In this document: positions 54,996-63,360 of the stretch, one piece after another
Numbering within the stretch: position 1 is the first letter of the stretch
Layout: every line of letters starts with the position of its first letter
Origin: Aquimarina macrocephali JAMB N27
GTDB taxonomy: Bacteria > Bacteroidota > Bacteroidia > Flavobacteriales > Flavobacteriaceae
NCBI RefSeq assembly: GCF_000520995.1
Contig: NZ_JACA01000001.1
Location: 310,001-374,000, forward strand
Length of the DNA stretch: 64,000 nucleotides
Reading direction: 5' to 3'
Program-made: the position numbers and the translations under genes
Notes under the pieces: generated by a model
Seen by the model: only the letters and a program-made list of their open reading frames with translations
Told to the model about the DNA's origin: nothing
Databases searched by the model: none

Positions 54996-56360
54996 ATGTT
55001 GAAAATAAAAAGCAAAAAAGTAGAAGGGATTATACCAGAAATCATTGATCAATATGCATATACTGATACTTCTGAAAGACCTTGGATTATTGGTTTTAGT
55101 GGAGGGAAAGATTCAACAGTACTTTTGACTCTAGTATGGATAGCCCTAGAAAGGATTCGTAAAGAAATGCCGTATCCTTATCAATTAAGAAGGCCAGTTT
55201 ATGTAGTTTCCAATGATACAATGGTAGAAAATCCAATAATTTCTAGTTATGTAGATGATGTTCTTGATAAAATACAAGAAAGTGCTAGAGATCAAGGGTT
55301 ACCTATTTTTGTTCAGAAAACAGTTCCTAAGCTTGAAGAAACCTATTGGATTAATGTAATAGGCAAAGGATATCCTGTGCCTAATAATGCATTTAGATGG
55401 TGTACTACTAAGCTAAAAATCAAACCTACCTCAAATTTCTTGTTAGAACAAATAGATCGAAAAGGAGAAGCTATTGTTTTACTGGGCACAAGATATGAAG
55501 AAAGCGCTGCTAGAGAACGTTCGATGCGAAAGCATGAAGTAGAAGGTAAACGATTATCAAAACATGAAGCCACTGCAAATACATATGTATATGCTCCCAT
55601 TAAAGAAATGATGCTTGAAGAAATTTGGTATATAATCAATGTGGTTCCTTCTCCTTGGGGTTTTGATAACTCCATCCTTTTTCAAATTTATTCTGATGCG
55701 AGTGCAGATGACTATGAATGCCCCACTGTGGTAACAAGTGAAGAACACAAATCTTGCGGGCAAAGCAGATTTGGATGTTGGACTTGTACTGTCGTTAAAA
55801 AAGACAAATCCATGTCTTCACTAGTAGAGAATGGGCAACATTGGATGAAACCTCTTCTTGATTTTAGAAATGACCTTGTTGAACAGAGAAATGTTAGTGA
55901 AAACAGAATGTCTACAAGAAGAAATGGGCAAAAAGCAGTTAGAGAGGATGGTACGTTCAATGGAAATTATACCCCAAAATACAGAGCTTCTATTCTTAAA
56001 GATTTGCTTACTTTTCAAAAGGAAATTCAAAAGGAAAGACCTCATATAACACTGATTACAAATCAAGAATTAATCGCTATTCAAGTAACTTGGAGTAGAG
56101 ATATGATATTTGATTATAACGTAGGGGAGATTTACAGAGAAATCTATAATAAAGAGATAAGTACAAATAACATTAAATCGCTTGATAATACTGAGAGAAG
56201 GATTTTGAAAGATGTCTGTAAGGATGATATTCAGTATTACCATCTAATAGATAATTTAATTTCTTTACAAGAAACTAAGACATTGATGATTTCTAAATAT
56301 GGTTTACACAATGATGTAGAAAACAGAATAGAATCTTTTGTAAATGATAACGAAATATGA
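54996..56360 (+). CDS. dndC: DNA phosphorothioation protein DndC
   Basis: 454 residues. ATP-pyrophosphatase P-loop SGGKDS (residues 35-40) in IIGFSGGKDSTVLL. Iron-sulfur cysteines: Cys136 in RWCTTKLK, then Cys254, Cys261 and Cys264 in SCGQSRFGCWTC. GTRYEESAARERSM and NTYVYAPIKEMMLEEIW are typical of DndC, a PAPS-reductase-like enzyme that activates the DNA backbone for sulfur insertion. The sulfur donor DndA may be replaced by IscS from elsewhere. The downstream dndD gene overlaps by 4 bases (ATGA). No dndB is found upstream. Confidence 0.93.
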   Translation: MLKIKSKKVEGIIPEIIDQYAYTDTSERPWIIGFSGGKDSTVLLTLVWIALERIRKEMPYPYQLRRPVYVVSNDTMVENPIISSYVDDVLDKIQESARDQGLPIFVQKTVPKLEETYWINVIGKGYPVPNNAFRWCTTKLKIKPTSNFLLEQIDRKGEAIVLLGTRYEESAARERSMRKHEVEGKRLSKHEATANTYVYAPIKEMMLEEIWYIINVVPSPWGFDNSILFQIYSDASADDYECPTVVTSEEHKSCGQSRFGCWTCTVVKKDKSMSSLVENGQHWMKPLLDFRNDLVEQRNVSENRMSTRRNGQKAVREDGTFNGNYTPKYRASILKDLLTFQKEIQKERPHITLITNQELIAIQVTWSRDMIFDYNVGEIYREIYNKEISTNNIKSLDNTERRILKDVCKDDIQYYHLIDNLISLQETKTLMISKYGLHNDVENRIESFVNDNEI

Positions 56361-58261
56361 AGATAAGTAAAATAAACTTAACAAATTTCAGAATATACAA
56401 AGGTGAAAACAAGTTAATATTCCCTTCTAATGGAGAAAAAAACATCAGTATAATAGCAGGGAAAAATGGTTTTGGGAAAACAACTTTTTTGACTTCTTTA
56501 ATTTGGGTTTTTTATGGAAAACTAATGGCTCAAGTTGAAGATAAATACAAAAAAGACATTAAAAATTCTGGTGGTTATGAAAAGTATTTGAAATCACTGA
56601 TTAATCGAAGTGTAAAAAGAGATTTCGAGCAAAATGATTCAGAAATTTCTAACTTTTCTGTTGAAGTTGAACTACAAGATTTATTCATACCATCTATCCC
56701 TTGCAGAACTGTAACTATAAAAAGATCTTTTGATTTAAAATCTGAAGAAGAAAACCTGATTATCTTAATAGATGGAGATGAAAATGAACTAACCAAAGAC
56801 GTAGGTTACGAGGTTTTTATCGATGACTTTATTTTACCTAGAGAGATAGCCAAATTCTTCTTTTTTGATGCAGAAAAAATAGTTTCTCTTGCCGAAGCTA
56901 AATCAAATAGCGAATTAAAGAGTTTGAGTAAGGCGTATTCTGAAGTATTGGGTATTAAAAAGTATGAAGAACTTAAAAATAATCTTGAAGTATTACTTTC
57001 AAAACTTCGAAGACGAGGCGGATCTGAATTCGAAAAATCCAAATTAGATGATTTAATTTCTAAAGAAGAAGAACTTCAAAAACGTATCGATCATAATCAA
57101 GATAAAAGAGATGATATTGATAAACAAATTACTATTCTAAAGAGTAAAAGTGATAGTCTTCAAGAAAAGTTAATCAGAGAAGGAAATGCTATCACTTTAG
57201 AAGAATTAAAAGAATTAAAATCTGAAAGAAATATTCTAAAAGAAGAATCTATTGGAATCAAAAATAAACTTAAAAAGCTTTTAGATATAGTTCCTCTTGT
57301 AATTGCTGGAAAACAATTGGTAAAACTTCATGATCAATTGGCTCTAGAAAGTAATGTCCTAAATGGAGTATTAAATTCTCAATTATTGAGAAAGGAAATA
57401 GAATCTTTTTCAAAAAGTGTACTTGAAAACATTGATGCTCTAATCTTAGACACTGATTCAAAGAAGAAAGCTAAAGAAGCTCTCAATCTATCATTAGAAA
57501 CTAAATTCAAAAAGAAAAATACTTCTGAAAATGATAAAAAAGTATTGTTAGATTTTTCTGAAGAAAGATTTAGAGATTTTGAAGCCATTTACACAAATAT
57601 CAAAACGACTTATGTAAGTCAGTTTAATGCTATTGTTCAGGAAGAGAAAAACAACAGAGTACTACTGTCAAGAGTTACAAATAAAATAAAACAAGCCGAA
57701 GCTCGAAAAGATAAGCCATTAGCAAAACAATTTAGAGAAGAAAAAGCTGAAACGGAAAAAAGTATTCAGGAATTTATTGAGCAGAAAAATAAGCTTATAG
57801 AAGAATTAGGAGGACTTAATACAAATCATTCTTCAACAAGAAAAGTACGTTCAGAATATGAAAAGAACTTTAATTTGGCTAAAACTGATAGAAAAAAACA
57901 CCAAGTCACTGAACAACTACTATTAAAAATTAATGATGTTATTAAGAAAATTAAGCAAGACAAAAAATTCTCATTACAGAGGTCTATGATTTTAGGTCTT
58001 AAAAGATTAATGCACAAGAATGATTTCATTATAGATGTAAGGGTAAACATCAAAGAAGACATTATGGATATTGATTTATTAGATAAAGAAGGTAATGTTA
58101 TAGATAAAGATTCTTTGTCTAAAGGAGAACAGCAATTATATGCTACAGCACTGTTAAAAGCATTGGTTGACGAATCTGGCATTAAGTTTCCCGTATTTAT
58201 TGATAGCCCGTTACAGAAATTTGATAAATTTCACTCTAAAAATATTATTAAAGAGTTCTAA
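56357..58261 (+). CDS. dndD: DndD SMC-like ATPase, 3'-truncated
   Basis: 634 residues. Walker A GKNGFGKT at 35-42, two long coiled coils (about 205-340 and 360-545), ABC signature LSKGEQQLYATALL near 587-600 and Walker B VFIDSP at 613-618. It stops after NIIKEF, just where the family continues with a Tyr-Pro segment and the H-loop. The lost part should be a few dozen residues. The stop is created by sequence belonging to the opposite-strand hydrolase gene. DndD gives the ATPase drive of phosphorothioation; without the C-terminus it may not work. No dndE follows. Confidence 0.9.
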   Translation: MKISKINLTNFRIYKGENKLIFPSNGEKNISIIAGKNGFGKTTFLTSLIWVFYGKLMAQVEDKYKKDIKNSGGYEKYLKSLINRSVKRDFEQNDSEISNFSVEVELQDLFIPSIPCRTVTIKRSFDLKSEEENLIILIDGDENELTKDVGYEVFIDDFILPREIAKFFFFDAEKIVSLAEAKSNSELKSLSKAYSEVLGIKKYEELKNNLEVLLSKLRRRGGSEFEKSKLDDLISKEEELQKRIDHNQDKRDDIDKQITILKSKSDSLQEKLIREGNAITLEELKELKSERNILKEESIGIKNKLKKLLDIVPLVIAGKQLVKLHDQLALESNVLNGVLNSQLLRKEIESFSKSVLENIDALILDTDSKKKAKEALNLSLETKFKKKNTSENDKKVLLDFSEERFRDFEAIYTNIKTTYVSQFNAIVQEEKNNRVLLSRVTNKIKQAEARKDKPLAKQFREEKAETEKSIQEFIEQKNKLIEELGGLNTNHSSTRKVRSEYEKNFNLAKTDRKKHQVTEQLLLKINDVIKKIKQDKKFSLQRSMILGLKRLMHKNDFIIDVRVNIKEDIMDIDLLDKEGNVIDKDSLSKGEQQLYATALLKALVDESGIKFPVFIDSPLQKFDKFHSKNIIKEF

Positions 58262-58834
58262 ACCATTATAAGTAGGGTTAGAATACTTAAAACGCTCACC
58301 TGGCTCAAAATAAAGGCTATCTACTTTTTTAAGAGGAGCAAAATTTTGTGTATCTCTAGCGGTAAGATAAAACTCTCGATTTTGTGATACTTTACGAGAA
58401 TCAGGTATTCCCGATGTATGAGATAACCAATGTTTAATCTTTATTTTGTTAGCAATCTCTTGATTGGTAAAATCATTAAAATATTTAACTATAGAGTCTT
58501 CTATTGACAATAAACCTTGCTGCTGTAATATTAGAATACCGTTAGCTACAAAAGTCTTAGAGATTGAACTGGTATTGAATAAGGTGTGTTCTGTGTTTTT
58601 ATCTCCTGTTTGCATATCGGCAACCCCATAACTATGTAAAAAAAGGGTTTTCTCTCCTTTTTTAATTAAAACAGTACCCCCAGGTTGATCAGGATTTGGA
58701 AACTGTTTAGTATACAAAGAATCGAGTTGAGTTTGTAATAGTGTAGCTTTAGTTACTGTTTGTTTGTTTTTACAGGAACTTAATGAAGCGATGAATAAAC
58801 AACTCAAAACAAATAAAAGAACTGATGTTTTCAT
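58211..58834 (-). pseudogene. Serine hydrolase (beta-lactamase/class C-like) lipoprotein, 3'-truncated
   Basis: 207 codons, of which about 193 are native. Lipobox Cys21 (SLSSC). Nucleophile site Ser90-x-x-Lys93 in SSISKTF, and Tyr184-Ser-Asn186 in KYSNPTYNG, so two of the three catalytic motifs are present. After GLE (residue 193) the protein runs into a frame made of dndD antisense and stops within 14 codons; a complete member is about twice as long and ends with an HxG-type motif. It follows the S9 peptidase gene on the same strand after 65 bases, so both were probably one operon. Its loss is part of the 58253-58260 junction. Confidence 0.85.
58253..58260. other. Rearrangement or assembly junction with 8-base microhomology
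   Basis: GAGTTCTA here fits both partners: dndD needs GAG TTC TA(T/C) for Glu-Phe-Tyr, and the hydrolase, on the other strand, needs TTA GAA CTC for Leu-Glu-Leu. The two truncated genes meet tail to tail at this point. No mobile-element end or longer repeat is visible. Confidence 0.75.
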
Positions 58835-58899: not shown

Positions 58900-60930
58900 T
58901 TATAAGTTAATGTATTTATTAATAAAATCTAGTTCAGCTTTCACTTTAGCTAATTTGTTTGAAGGTTTCCTGTATACATGTCCTTCTCCTTTAAAAATTA
59001 GAAGTTCTGTTTTTACACCCAAATCTCTTAAAGTATAATACATCGCATATGCATTACTTGTAGGCACTCGCGAATCTTTTTCGCCATGAGTAATCAAAGT
59101 AGGCGTTTTTATTTTCGTAGCATTATAGATAGCACTTTCTTTTCTGTAGAGCGTAGGGTTTTCCCATACTTTTATATTATTAAAAAGAATATTTTTATTT
59201 ACATCCCCATCATTAGTGCCAAAATTTGCAATTTCATTCCATATCCCACAACTGGTTAACGCAACTTTAAATAAAGTTGTTTCTCCAATAATCATATTAG
59301 TTAAGTTCCCTCCATAACTAGCCCCTTTAACTACCATTCTATTTCTATCAACCCACTTTTCATTTATTACATATTCAACACCTTTCAAGACATCATCTGT
59401 TGGTTTAGTTTTAGGGTTTCCGATAATAGCATCAACAAATTCTTGTCCTCTACCTGTACTACCTCTATAATTAGGTTGTAAAACTAAAAAACCTTTAGAA
59501 GCTAATAAGGAGGCGAAATAATAATATTGTAATTTATTAACTGTAATAGCTTCAGATCTACTTGACATGGGCCCTCCATGTATGTCAACAACAAAAGGTA
59601 AGTTTTTAGACCCTTTTTTACCCGGAGGCCACATAAGTACACCTTCAATAGTCTCTCCAGTTGAATTTTTCCAAATAATTTTTTCTATTTCAGGTTTAGG
59701 GTAGCTATTTAGTTTTTCATTAAAATTAGTTATTTTAATTGGAGTTTTCAACCCTTCTGTTGACCTAGCTATATATACTTCTTCAAATGAGTCATTTTTA
59801 ACCATAGAAAAAGCGAAGAGTTTTTTTTCGTTATTATTCGTCGTAAAATTATTAATAGTCCCTTTAAAATCACTTATTTTTTTAAAAGAATCTTCCTTAT
59901 AGATAAAAAGGTTTGATGACGTAGATTCTTCAGCATTAATAAGAACTGTTTTATCTTTTAATGTGACAAAACCTTGTATTTTACCTTTAAAGTTTTTAAT
60001 CAATTTCTTTGTATTATTATCTAACCCTATAAAATATAATTGATCAAAAGATCTATTATTCTTATTTTTCTGTGGATCTCCAGTAAACATAGAGATTACT
60101 TTATCGTTTGTAAACCATCGTGATCGATCCCAAACCATATCTTTTGTCAATTGTTTTATTAATGAACCATTTTTACTATTAATGATATAAGTGTGGGATT
60201 CAGAATAAACATCATTACTAAAATAACTTTTAGTTTTATAATTAGAGTATACTATATTTTCTTTATTTGGTGAAATTTCAAAATATGAAACATTTGCTTT
60301 AATGGTAAATAAAGAATCTATAATTTTTGACCCTAACTTAAAGGTTTTAAATACCGTATGTCTAATTAAGTTCTCTTTTGGAAGTTTAATGAAACTTGAA
60401 TTGGTTTTAGGCTTTATCACGGAAATTTTTTCACAAAAAACAATTTGATTATTATCAAGTACTGAATAAGAGTATAATTTCTTTAACCTTTCTTTTGAAT
60501 TAATTACAGGAGTAATAATAAGTGGGTTTTTAGGAGATATTTTGAATAAGTTGTAACCTATATTATCTTTTGATTTAAATAATAAAAAATCGCTATTACT
60601 TGTCCATTTTAGTTGTGAGATTGTGTTTTTAAATATTGGGACTTCTATTTTAGCAATTACATTATCTTTTTCATCAATTTCATATTGCCATAATCTTTTT
60701 TGAATTTTATTTTCCTTAAAATCATTTTCATTCGTAACAATAGCTATATATTTCCCATTTGGAGATATGGAAATATTTGAGATATTTATTTGGGATAAGT
60801 ATTCTTCAACTGGATATCCAACTTCTATTGTAGATTTTTGCCCATAAACTAAATTATTGTAAGCTAGAATTATTATTGCTAATATAATTAAATTCGAACT
60901 GATTGTTTTTTTAAAGACTAAATTATTCAT
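58900..60930 (-). CDS. Secreted S9 prolyl oligopeptidase-family peptidase
   Basis: 676 residues. Signal peptide about 1-30 (ending LVYGQ). The N-terminal propeller (about 45-390, repeats such as ISISPNGKYIAIVTN and DRSRWFTNDKVISMFTGD) precedes an alpha/beta hydrolase domain. The nucleophile Ser is in VVKGASYGGNLTN, Asp in THGEKDSRVPTSNAYAMYY and His in KGEGHVYRKPSN. It looks like a dipeptidyl/acylaminoacyl-type peptidase that trims short peptides in the periplasm. It follows the small precursor gene after 170 bases containing two hairpins, and so may act on that product; this is inference. Confidence 0.93.
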   Translation of the reverse strand: MNNLVFKKTISSNLIILAIIILAYNNLVYGQKSTIEVGYPVEEYLSQINISNISISPNGKYIAIVTNENDFKENKIQKRLWQYEIDEKDNVIAKIEVPIFKNTISQLKWTSNSDFLLFKSKDNIGYNLFKISPKNPLIITPVINSKERLKKLYSYSVLDNNQIVFCEKISVIKPKTNSSFIKLPKENLIRHTVFKTFKLGSKIIDSLFTIKANVSYFEISPNKENIVYSNYKTKSYFSNDVYSESHTYIINSKNGSLIKQLTKDMVWDRSRWFTNDKVISMFTGDPQKNKNNRSFDQLYFIGLDNNTKKLIKNFKGKIQGFVTLKDKTVLINAEESTSSNLFIYKEDSFKKISDFKGTINNFTTNNNEKKLFAFSMVKNDSFEEVYIARSTEGLKTPIKITNFNEKLNSYPKPEIEKIIWKNSTGETIEGVLMWPPGKKGSKNLPFVVDIHGGPMSSRSEAITVNKLQYYYFASLLASKGFLVLQPNYRGSTGRGQEFVDAIIGNPKTKPTDDVLKGVEYVINEKWVDRNRMVVKGASYGGNLTNMIIGETTLFKVALTSCGIWNEIANFGTNDGDVNKNILFNNIKVWENPTLYRKESAIYNATKIKTPTLITHGEKDSRVPTSNAYAMYYTLRDLGVKTELLIFKGEGHVYRKPSNKLAKVKAELDFINKYINL

Positions 60931-60963
60931 TCTGTTCTTAATTTTTAATAAATTATGAGCGAT

Positions 60964-60992
60964 AAAGACAGGTGTTTTTTACACCTGTCTTT
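60964..60992 (-). promoter_or_regulatory. Hairpin between precursor and peptidase (proximal to peptidase)
   Basis: AAAGACAGGTGT pairs perfectly with ACACCTGTCTTT (12 bp) around a 5-base T loop (A loop on the minus strand). It lies 34 bases before the peptidase ATG. It may attenuate transcription or occlude the leader. Confidence 0.6.
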
Positions 60993-61003
60993 AAAAGATT
61001 TAA

Positions 61004-61032
61004 ACAATTAAGAGTCATTAACTCTTAATTGT
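61004..61032 (-). terminator. Hairpin after the precursor gene
   Basis: ACAATTAAGAGT pairs with ACTCTTAATTGT (12 bp, perfect) around a 5-base loop. On the minus strand it is followed by TTTAAATCTTTT, a weak T tract. It sits 67 bases past the precursor stop and could partly end transcription, leaving more precursor than peptidase mRNA. Confidence 0.6.
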
Positions 61033-61099
61033 TCTTCTAAAATATAAAATTAAAAAGTTTCTGGTTTTTTAACTCTGTGAATCGAAACTTTTTAAAAAA

Positions 61100-61270
61100 T
61101 CACATGGTTTCATCAGTAAGTATAGTACTATTTTCTGGATCCGGACAATCACTTCCTCCTCTAATTATTTTGGGATTATTAATTTTACTGATATGTAATT
61201 TTTCTAAGGTTAAATTTTTTTTAGAATCTTTTATTTTTTTTGTGTTAGAATCTTTCATTTCAATATTCAT
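61100..61270 (-). CDS. Double-glycine-leader peptide precursor (Bacteroidota RiPP type)
   Basis: 56 residues, too short for a standard gene caller and hidden under a shadow frame on the other strand. The N-terminal 19 residues are Lys/Asp/Ser-rich. Residues 20-31 (LTLEKLHISKIN) show the LxLxKLxIxKL spacing I know from leaders of Bacteroidota natural-product precursors, and Gly38-Gly39 is a cleavage site. The core is 17 residues (SDCPDPENSTILTDETM), with one Cys, several Ser/Thr and many acidic residues. A TAAGTTTG box 20 bases before the ATG supports expression. Neighbours: TPR-AraC regulator upstream and S9 peptidase downstream. No lanthipeptide dehydratase or peptidase-transporter is in view. 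Confidence 0.78.
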   Translation of the reverse strand: MNIEMKDSNTKKIKDSKKNLTLEKLHISKINNPKIIRGGSDCPDPENSTILTDETM

Positions 61271-61290: not shown

Positions 61291-61298
61291 CAAACTTA
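61291..61298 (-). promoter_or_regulatory. -7 box of the peptide precursor gene
   Basis: TAAGTTTG on the minus strand, a perfect TAnnTTTG match, ends 20 bases before the precursor ATG. The TTAAAA just ahead of the ATG is typical of Bacteroidota starts. Confidence 0.5.
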
Positions 61299-61335: not shown

Positions 61336-61367
61336 TTATGGTCGATATTTATGAATGTCGACCATAA
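61336..61367. promoter_or_regulatory. Perfect inverted repeat at the end of the regulator gene
   Basis: TTATGGTCGA and TCGACCATAA match exactly around a 12-base spacer, across the stop codon of the regulator gene and 66-97 bases before the precursor ATG. No T tract follows on either strand, so an operator reads better than a terminator. Confidence 0.5.
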
Positions 61368-63097
61368 TTCTGTTTGTTTTTTTTAAGCTCTTTTATAAAA
61401 AAAGAAGGGTAAACACCTGTATTCTTATAGAATGCCTTAGAAAAAGATTCAGCATTATTGAAGCCAATTTCATTTCCAATTGCTTTGATTGAATATGATC
61501 TAATTTTTTTATCTTTTTTTAGCTTTTCAATTATATAGTCAATTCTTAAATCATTAATGTAGTTACTAAAACTTTTATTCTTAGATGAGTTGACTATTTT
61601 AGAGAGATATGATGAATTAGTTTTAAACTTTTTTGCAGTACTAATTAAGGTTATATCGTTGGAGAGATAAGAATGATGTTTTTCAAATAGTTCTAGTTTT
61701 GAAATAACATTTTCAACTACAGATTTTGATATACCCAGTTTTTCAGAATCTGTACTTTGAAAACTTTTCACATTTATGTTGTGGTTAGTACTTTTAACAT
61801 TACTATGTAGTAATTTATCAACACGTTTTTGGTAAGTTTTATGTTTTAAGTAAAGCCGATAAATTACAATTAGAAAACTTATAGCTATTATTACAAAAAT
61901 GCAGACAAGAATATAGGCTCTTTTTTGCTTATTTCTTAATTGACTTATAATTAACTCTTTTTCTAAAATTAGCTGTGGAGTTTCATAATTTGTCAAAATA
62001 TTTTTAGATAATGTTTTTTCATTCTTAGTTAACACACTATCTACATGTAATAATCGCTCTATATATTTTAATTGTTGCTCCTTATTATTATTTTTCTTAT
62101 AATAATCAATAAGTAGTTCGTAGGTAGGTCTCATTTCTTGAAAAATAAGACTTTTTTCTAACCCTATTGAATCGGTTTTTTTTAAATACTTAATACTTTT
62201 CCCTTCTAAACCTTGTTCTTTTAATGTTTTACCTAAATGAAGATAAGTTACCATTAAATTTGTATATTTTTTGTTTCTTATTTGCTCTTTTTCAGCTTTT
62301 TTAAAAGCATCAATTGCTTCATTATAGTTTTTATTTGCATGATTAACGATTCCTAATATCAGAAGAAAAGAAGAATGTAATTTTTCTCCAGATGTTTCAC
62401 TTTCAGCAATTCCTAATTCAGCAATTTTTTTTGCAGAATCATAATCATCCATTTTACTATAAGCATCTGCCAAAGCAATAAGAGAAACTAAATACTCTCT
62501 TTGGTGGGTCTTTTTATGATGTTTAATGAAATCATAATATTCTTTAAAAAGTTGGAGAGCTTGATCTTCTTCTTCACTGGCATTTTTTAACAACCCTATA
62601 GAATGTTTTACTTTGTATTGTTGAAAAAGATTATTGTTTTTCTTTGCATATTGATCCATTTTGAGATAATTATCTAAAGCTAAATCATATTTTCCATTTC
62701 TATAATAGTAGGCAGCTTTTAAAAAGAAGCCTCTTGCTGGGTAAAGACTATCTTTGATTTCAATAGTTAATTGGATTATGCTATCAGCATAATTTAATGA
62801 TGAACTTTTGTTTCGATTTATTTTATAATATAACTCATAAGCATTTACAACTTTCATTTTCCTATTAAGTCTCTTAGCTTTTTTTAAATATGTACTTAGG
62901 TATAATTTAGCTAAGTTAAAATCATTTCTTTTTTTGTTATGGTTAAATCCCTTTTCTAATTCTTCAAATGTTTTATTTTTTAATGAATCCAAAACCAAAT
63001 ATTCTGATTTCTCCTGATATGCAAAACAACTATAAACTCTAAGAGTTAATAACCCTAAAGTCAAAAATACTGCTATTTCTTTTTGGTACTTTTTCAT
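61349..63097 (-). CDS. TPR and AraC-type HTH membrane regulator
   Basis: I start at ATG 63097 (582 residues), as KKYQKEIAVFLTLGLLTLRVYSCFAYQ is an export signal; an ATG at 63157 would add 20 residues before it. TPR-like helices fill about 60-390 (NYNEAIDAFKKAEKEQ, YLHLGKTLKEQGLEG). A transmembrane helix lies at about 395-415, then a cytoplasmic tail with an AraC-type HTH (about 480-575: LISTAKKFKTNSSYLSKIV, KAIGNEIGFNNAESFSKAFYK). The periplasmic TPR sensor may bind a peptide and change DNA binding. It precedes the precursor gene on the same strand. Confidence 0.88.
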   Translation of the reverse strand: MKKYQKEIAVFLTLGLLTLRVYSCFAYQEKSEYLVLDSLKNKTFEELEKGFNHNKKRNDFNLAKLYLSTYLKKAKRLNRKMKVVNAYELYYKINRNKSSSLNYADSIIQLTIEIKDSLYPARGFFLKAAYYYRNGKYDLALDNYLKMDQYAKKNNNLFQQYKVKHSIGLLKNASEEEDQALQLFKEYYDFIKHHKKTHQREYLVSLIALADAYSKMDDYDSAKKIAELGIAESETSGEKLHSSFLLILGIVNHANKNYNEAIDAFKKAEKEQIRNKKYTNLMVTYLHLGKTLKEQGLEGKSIKYLKKTDSIGLEKSLIFQEMRPTYELLIDYYKKNNNKEQQLKYIERLLHVDSVLTKNEKTLSKNILTNYETPQLILEKELIISQLRNKQKRAYILVCIFVIIAISFLIVIYRLYLKHKTYQKRVDKLLHSNVKSTNHNINVKSFQSTDSEKLGISKSVVENVISKLELFEKHHSYLSNDITLISTAKKFKTNSSYLSKIVNSSKNKSFSNYINDLRIDYIIEKLKKDKKIRSYSIKAIGNEIGFNNAESFSKAFYKNTGVYPSFFIKELKKNKQNYGRHS

Positions 63098-63360
63098 TGA
63101 AAATTTCCAATATTTTAGTTTTACTTTCTCAAGTATTTTCAGAATATTAGGGAACATTGTTTTTTAATAAATAGAGTTATAAATATTTATAAAATAAATG
63201 TGTATTGCCTAAGTTCAGATTTTGAAGTTGTAAATATAATATTCTTAATACTTTAAAAACACCTATAAATGACTTATTGTTAAGCTCTTAATTTAAACAG
63301 AGTATTACTCGAGATTTATAAAAATAGATCACGATATTCATCAATCTCGATATATCTCCC

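Follow-up and report, generated by a model that had tools for sequence, protein, structure and literature searches.

The window analysed here, 64,000 nucleotides of Aquimarina macrocephali JAMB N27 (positions 310,001 to 374,000 of contig NZ_JACA01000001.1), encodes on its minus strand a small precursor peptide with a double-glycine (GG) leader that belongs to a recurring flavobacterial module consisting of a membrane regulator, then a GG peptide, and then, often, an exported serine peptidase. This finding is carried by the peptide family itself, the gene order, the geometry of a palindrome relative to the peptide promoter, purifying selection in relatives of the peptide and the co-occurrence of the family with LanB. 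We consider it likely that the paired regulator activates the peptide gene, that lanthipeptide machinery common to the modules modifies and exports the product, and that the peptidase acts on the core. The repetition of the module, the putative operator and the common LanB and LanC are additions to a preliminary description of this DNA, in which the peptide was placed beside a regulator and a secreted peptidase. In the order of transcription, the elements are as follows.

61349-63157, minus strand: membrane regulator of 602 amino acids (aa), with a hydrophobic N-terminal segment (28-46), a TPR superhelix (approximately 55-388), a transmembrane (TM) segment (410-439) and an AraC helix-turn-helix (HTH) domain, PF12833
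61336..61367, strand-neutral: palindrome, putative operator, with 14-nt arms that are 93% complementary (GGTCGA...TCGACC at 61340-61363), overlapping the stop codon of the regulator
61291..61298, minus strand: -7 box TAAGTTTG in the promoter of the peptide gene, with the centre of the operator 53 bp away
61100..61270, minus strand: GG-leader precursor peptide gene of 56 codons, recognised by a hidden Markov model (HMM) of foreign leaders (22.7 bits) and by the family alignment
61154..61270, minus strand: leader LTLEKLHISKI...GG, residues 1-39, similar to the LxLxKx5L leader that class I LanAs have in Bacteroidetes (PMC7268733)
61103..61153, minus strand: core SDCPDPENSTILTDETM, residues 40-56, with one Cys and five Ser/Thr
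61002..61034, minus strand: terminator-like hairpin in the interval between the peptide and peptidase genes
60963-60993: further inverted repeat in the same interval
58900..60930, minus strand: S9 serine peptidase of 676 aa, hydrophobic at its N-terminus and carrying the motifs GASYGG, HGEKD and GEGH, outside the S9A branch found repeatedly in other modules

The open reading frame (ORF) at 61100-61270 has the 56 codons, the Gly38-Gly39 site and the 17-residue core (Ser40-Met56, with the single Cys42) that had been ascribed to it, and its leader is of the proposed LxLxKLxIxKL type, except for the final position, which is Ile (KI) instead of Leu. The statement that a plain ORF view does not show the gene is true only if the cut-off is set near 60 aa; with one of 30 aa, the list contains the peptide ORF together with the overlapping ORF of 96 codons on the opposite strand. 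Met5 (61258) is the common start in the alignment of 17 peptides from the same genome, and the window protein may comprise 52 aa if started there. A search of the 166 window ORFs with an HMM built from the leaders of 63 of the 65 peptides of other genomes (see below) yields 22.7 bits for the window peptide (E 8e-7) and 3.0 bits for the runner-up, and 2000 residue shuffles reach at most 13.3 bits; given that these 63 peptides were originally found via a model of the 17 own-genome peptides, the window's among them, the test carries a small circularity and is nearly independent. The window ORF is thereby confirmed, beyond chance, as a real GG-leader precursor peptide.

The A. macrocephali genome contains 17 aligned GG peptides (18 by profile matching), 10 of the 17 encoded directly downstream of a regulator of the TPR-TM-AraC type and 6 matching the curated class I lanthipeptide model NF038153 (NCBIfam) at E up to 0.01. 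The homologues with a conserved leader and GG, whose absence would have refuted the gene according to the preliminary description, are found not only here but also in 65 of 79 foreign loci identified through the regulator, and 50 of the 66 Aquimarina genomes, this one included, contain matches to the peptide profile. Purifying selection on the family is shown in these relatives: over 12 orthologous pairs (12 of 16 kept, the four with common members being left out of the totals), the ratio of nonsynonymous to synonymous substitution rates is 0.20 for leaders and 0.46 for cores, with nearly equal synonymous rates. Cores were compared in 60 of 61 relatives (L155, which has no GG, was dropped, and own peptides and five loci with an unresolved regulator were left out); 10 cores contain no Cys, 17 contain one, 18 two and 15 three or more, Ser or Thr is present in all 60, and some of the Cys-free cores are acidic. 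A second GG peptide type, with an LNGV... leader, is encoded near a distant regulator in L049 (6978-7172) and near a main-type GG peptide in L005 (165-362).

The neighbouring regulator is, as had been proposed, a TPR gene with an AraC HTH, here combined with a TM segment and located upstream of the peptide gene; its match to HTH_18 (PF12833) scores 45.0 bits against a cut-off of 33.6. A TM-like segment is present in all 75 peptide-paired regulators and an N-terminal hydrophobic segment in 58 of the 75. The regulator profile has 23 matches in the own genome, 17 of them near full length. Because circularity was to be avoided, 79 foreign loci were fetched by regulator similarity alone, from the best 80 matches. 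When the 1979 ORFs of 30-129 aa in these loci were scanned with the own-genome leader model, 64 matches of at least 10 bits lay downstream of the regulator at no more than 700 bp from it and 2 lay elsewhere, with the five loci with an unresolved regulator uncounted. With those five rescued stop to stop, a peptide follows the regulator in 65 of the 79 loci, a figure that is no rate for TPR-AraC proteins overall since these are the regulators closest to the peptide-associated ones; conserved copies beside TPR-AraC genes thus do occur in other flavobacteria. The 65 loci include 49 from Aquimarina, 6 from Kordia, 2 from Chryseobacterium and one each from Flavobacterium, Tenacibaculum, Dokdonia and Sinomicrobium. 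On the regulator tree, the peptide label changes 12 times (10 changes being forced by starred branches) compared with 19 in shuffles, so that the pairing is clustered, with ambiguous gain and loss; the window regulator has as its sister L087, a Kordia protein, at a support of 86 and on long branches. Peptide and regulator counts per genome are correlated, with rho of 0.92 over 66 genomes and 0.91 over the 58 that are at least 90% complete, values that common ancestry inflates. In L044 (own C20:59030-60506), an apparently broken regulator copy, with pieces and stops, adjoins an intact one; L103 (4036-5694) has a TPR-AraC regulator lacking a GG peptide, with an S8 subtilase (PF00082) behind it, and L151, judged by eye, is perhaps similar.

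The -7 box that had been assigned to the peptide gene is present at 61298-61291 on the minus strand and starts 28 bases before the ATG, and the palindrome GGTCGACATTCATAAATATCGACC (minus strand) is centred 53 bp upstream of it. Across the modules, the palindrome core is TTYNNRAA and the -7 box is TAnnTTTG-like. In 34 of the 75 modules, the window included, the spacing from the palindrome centre down to the -7 box is exactly 53 bp, and the maximum at any distance in 300 dinucleotide-block shuffles is 4 modules. Palindromes at 52-54 bp are found in 45 modules, and another 10 modules have theirs roughly a helical turn nearer to the -7 box (42-44 bp); three of these 55 (L146, L147 and L162) stand at odd places. 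A palindromic site at a fixed 53 bp from the peptide -7 box is new here. Such a geometry would be expected if an activator bound the DNA directly near -60, and we infer this binding from the fixed spacing. Operator type tracks HTH residue 516, which is Lys in 25 of 29 C-type and in none of 23 T-type modules (52 of the 55 palindrome modules, L146, L147 and L162 being set aside), and HTH columns are over-represented among the 50 best associations, with 29 of their 189 tests compared with 21 of 799 for the TPR part. This covariation would back direct binding without proving it. The window palindrome has no second match in the own genome at up to 3 mismatches; there is no preferred -33 TTG (TTG occurs 15-25 bp before the -7 box in 12 of 54 cases, with no offset favoured), and a sigma-70 scan shows no excess (3 against 3.7 expected). 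An alternative search that took only the best palindrome of each module gave a mean of 7.8 of 10 against 7.2 in 200 single-base shuffles (maximum 7.4), but it misplaced the site in many modules, including the window, and was abandoned; the site was then located by the spacing test.

The own genome encodes one split LanB (PF04738 and a separate PF14028 gene), one LanC (PF05147) and three C39 domains (PF03412), none of them at the window. LanB is found at C1:250490 and LanC at C11:38793; the window peptide is at C1:371103. LanB adjoins one of the ten own modules, L041 (own C1:239500-255500). The peptide of this module ends in Ala-Gly rather than Gly-Gly; its relatives L088, L096 and L111 have a second regulator after the peptide, and within the clade the TPR part (0.76-0.89) and core (0.21-0.65) diverge, but there is little difference in the HTH (0.92-0.97) or the leader (0.92-0.98). 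Of the 66 Aquimarina genomes, 48 have the peptide together with LanB, 14 have neither and 2 + 2 are discordant; the 58 genomes that are at least 90% complete give 47, 9 and 1 + 1, and the regulator (E up to 1e-150) and LanB give 45, 15 and 1 + 5 over the 66 genomes, all of these statistics being inflated by common ancestry. LanC is present in 47 of the 66 genomes and absent from four that have LanB (G012, G030, G036 and G059). A LanB-bearing genome has a median of 11 GG-peptide matches and up to 41.

The S9 peptidase downstream of the peptide gene, with its hydrophobic N-terminus, corresponds to the secreted peptidase of the preliminary description. Elsewhere, the next same-strand ORF after the peptide encodes an S9A prolyl oligopeptidase in 23 of 65 modules, an S8 subtilase in 7 and another regulator in 4, and 29 of these 30 peptidases have an export-like N-terminus in a simple hydropathy/lipobox test. 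The S9A gene of L144 lies 1236 bp from the peptide and the regulator after L113 lies at 685 bp.

These observations are best compatible with the following mechanism. The TPR-TM-AraC protein would act as a one-component activator in the membrane and bind the palindrome about 60 bp before the transcription start, each regulator switching on its own adjacent peptide gene. The precursor would then be modified by class I lanthipeptide machinery common to the modules of the cell, namely the split LanB and single LanC encoded elsewhere, cleaved behind Gly-Gly and carried out of the cell by one of the three C39 transporters; as the genome has three C39 peptidase domains, export and cleavage at Gly-Gly, which had already been proposed, are plausible. 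Finally, the adjacent exported serine peptidase would trim or degrade the exported core. For the window, this last step is the weakest: its S9 belongs to another branch, which makes a role of this peptidase in the module less sure.

Several points weigh against this explanation, in addition to the choice of the 79 loci and the common ancestry already mentioned. At the window, the hairpins separate the peptide from the peptidase gene; the S9 is unmatched (E up to 1e-4) by the genes found downstream of the peptides of other modules, so that the explanation as a whole becomes slightly less likely, and it lacks the PF02897 match that the S9A of L030 has. The search with precursor profile models suggested in the preliminary description gave no match: scans of the 56 residues against Pfam and NCBIfam, including NF038153, return no family at E up to 10. 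There is also no close orthologue of the window peptide in the 66 Aquimarina genomes, the best match being 49% over residues 14-52, and selection was for this reason measured on relatives. LanB and LanC do not cluster with the window peptide, and because 10 of 60 cores are Cys-free, lanthionine rings are not general for all the peptides. Seven more distant near-full-length own regulators, outside the ten, have no main-type peptide directly downstream in ORF lists inspected by eye, although at one of them, L049, the GG peptide of the second type lies further on. At the level of the operator, 20 of the 75 modules have no palindrome at the spacings tested, the window is one of four exceptions to the Lys516 rule (Ser516, mixed core), and the operator-HTH covariation amounts to about five changes on the tree with 3 independent pairs, too few for significance.

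The view that the ORF arose by chance or is a decayed pseudogene can draw on the lack of a close orthologue of this particular peptide, but it is scarcely credible as the leader model, the position, and the palindrome and promoter geometry all concur. It is also very unlikely that the palindrome does no more than terminate the regulator gene or form a hairpin for its processing, with the peptide co-transcribed with the regulator: although the palindrome is flagged as terminator-like on the opposite (plus) strand, there is no such flag on the strand of the regulator, and the 53 bp distance that recurs across modules would be needless for a terminator.

Two further readings concern function. One extends the proposed mechanism to a private pheromone circuit, similar to RRNPP signalling but acting across the membrane, in which the TPR domain, predicted to lie outside the inner membrane, would recognise, as a receptor, the exported core encoded by its own neighbour, the HTH would activate the peptide gene, and the peptidase would mature or reset the signal. 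We regard this as possible but would not presume it. Covariation between peptides and regulators, computed over 73 of the 75 modules, lends weak support to the idea that every TPR domain recognises the peptide encoded beside it, but the signal is low: 0.136 after trimming the TPR part to the HTH column number, 0.079-0.133 in single TPR stretches and 0.102 over a set restricted to the 24 most diverse modules. Moreover, leaders also follow the TPR part, with 0.140 in one subset and up to 0.183 in C-terminal TPR stretches, and the non-redundant set gives no clear leader-HTH signal (53/1000). The TPR fold itself is generic, with APPBP2 (26.6), LGN (24.2), APC/C (23.4) and MalT (22.7) scoring alike, and an N-terminal hydrophobic segment is missing from some of the regulators, as noted above. 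Generalised, this would mean that flavobacteria run many parallel peptide circuits, each with an outside TPR receptor that recognises the adjacent core and a cytoplasmic AraC domain that activates via the 53-bp operator, with enzymes and export in common, a proposal that we advance as speculative. The other reading, which we consider conceivable without preferring it, is antagonism: the products would be bacteriocin-like lanthipeptides under local sensors of envelope stress, a competitor or a nutrient, and the peptidase would be a leader protease or serve self-protection. The LanB, LanC and C39 genes of the genome, the LanB co-occurrence and the precedent of serine peptidases as leader proteases (NisP of S8 and FlaP of S9; PMC10885120) are in line with this; however, no immunity gene was recognised among the listed neighbours, where no systematic search was made, some cores are acidic and Cys-free, and a genome with one LanB can have as many as 41 peptide matches.

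Among known systems, the closest precursors are those of Bacteroidetes class I lanthipeptides, for which LxLxKx5L leaders with GG and C39 are described (Walker et al. 2020, PMC7268733, cited here in part). The window leader fits this pattern with Ile for the last Leu, the genome has LanB, LanC and C39, and the window core contains Ser/Thr and Cys; in contrast to class I LanA, the window peptide does not match NF038153 and is encoded apart from LanB and LanC, 10 of the 17 own peptides are regulator-paired, and 10 of the 60 cores of relatives lack Cys. The plain label "class I lanthipeptide" was dropped given the unmatched curated model and the Cys-free relatives.

Prochlorosin systems are not known to have paired regulators. 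They resemble the present case in that many precursors are served by one promiscuous enzyme, and differ in their Nif11-type leaders and ProcM, compared with LanB/LanC here (PMC10783134, in the part available). RRNPP systems (PMC10075063, likewise) share adjacent propeptide and receptor genes and a similar TPR fold, and at the window a TPR receptor gene indeed adjoins a small propeptide gene; however, their receptors are intracellular and belong to Firmicutes, whereas the window regulator is a TM protein (TM-like segment 410-439) and not a soluble cytoplasmic one, with a C-terminal AraC HTH and a partner with a GG leader. Like NisP and FlaP, the precursor-adjacent peptidases belong to families S8 and S9, but the present setting is Gram-negative, C39 should already cut the GG leaders, and the window S9 is of another branch (compare PMC10885120, excerpts). 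A study of Bacteroidales reports two clusters in which TPR genes accompany GG precursors, and it refers to pheromone-binding TPR proteins in other bacteria (PMC10352776); those clusters contain enzymes, and the excerpted text mentions neither dispersed regulator-peptide pairs nor an operator. Two surveys of Flavobacteriaceae count lanthipeptide clusters, and the word "precursor" is absent from the main text as retrieved (PMC10734526, PMC7440613). No description of regulator-paired GG peptides of this kind was found among the literature matches listed, which comprised titles and abstract beginnings, with most subscription journals outside.

Close to the module, on the plus strand (54996-58261), a gene with a PAPS-reductase domain (454 aa) precedes one that resembles SMC/AAA ATPases (634 aa), a pair that we take to resemble DndC-DndD of DNA phosphorothioation systems. 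At 58211-58834, a 207-aa protein with the beta-lactamase fold of PF00144 covers less than half of the profile and looks truncated; the end of its gene overlaps the convergent ATPase gene.

Thus, a single hidden ORF leads to a general and testable system: one marine genus has many GG peptides, many of them paired with their own membrane regulator and an operator at a set position, and in one genome a single LanB and LanC would serve them all. The order of regulator gene, palindrome, 53 bp, -7 box and GG peptide constitutes a search rule for peptides that cluster-based mining would miss, and it offers a direct route for testing peptide signalling in Bacteroidota. If the pheromone-circuit reading is true, these modules would represent a transmembrane counterpart of RRNPP signalling that operates with modified peptides.
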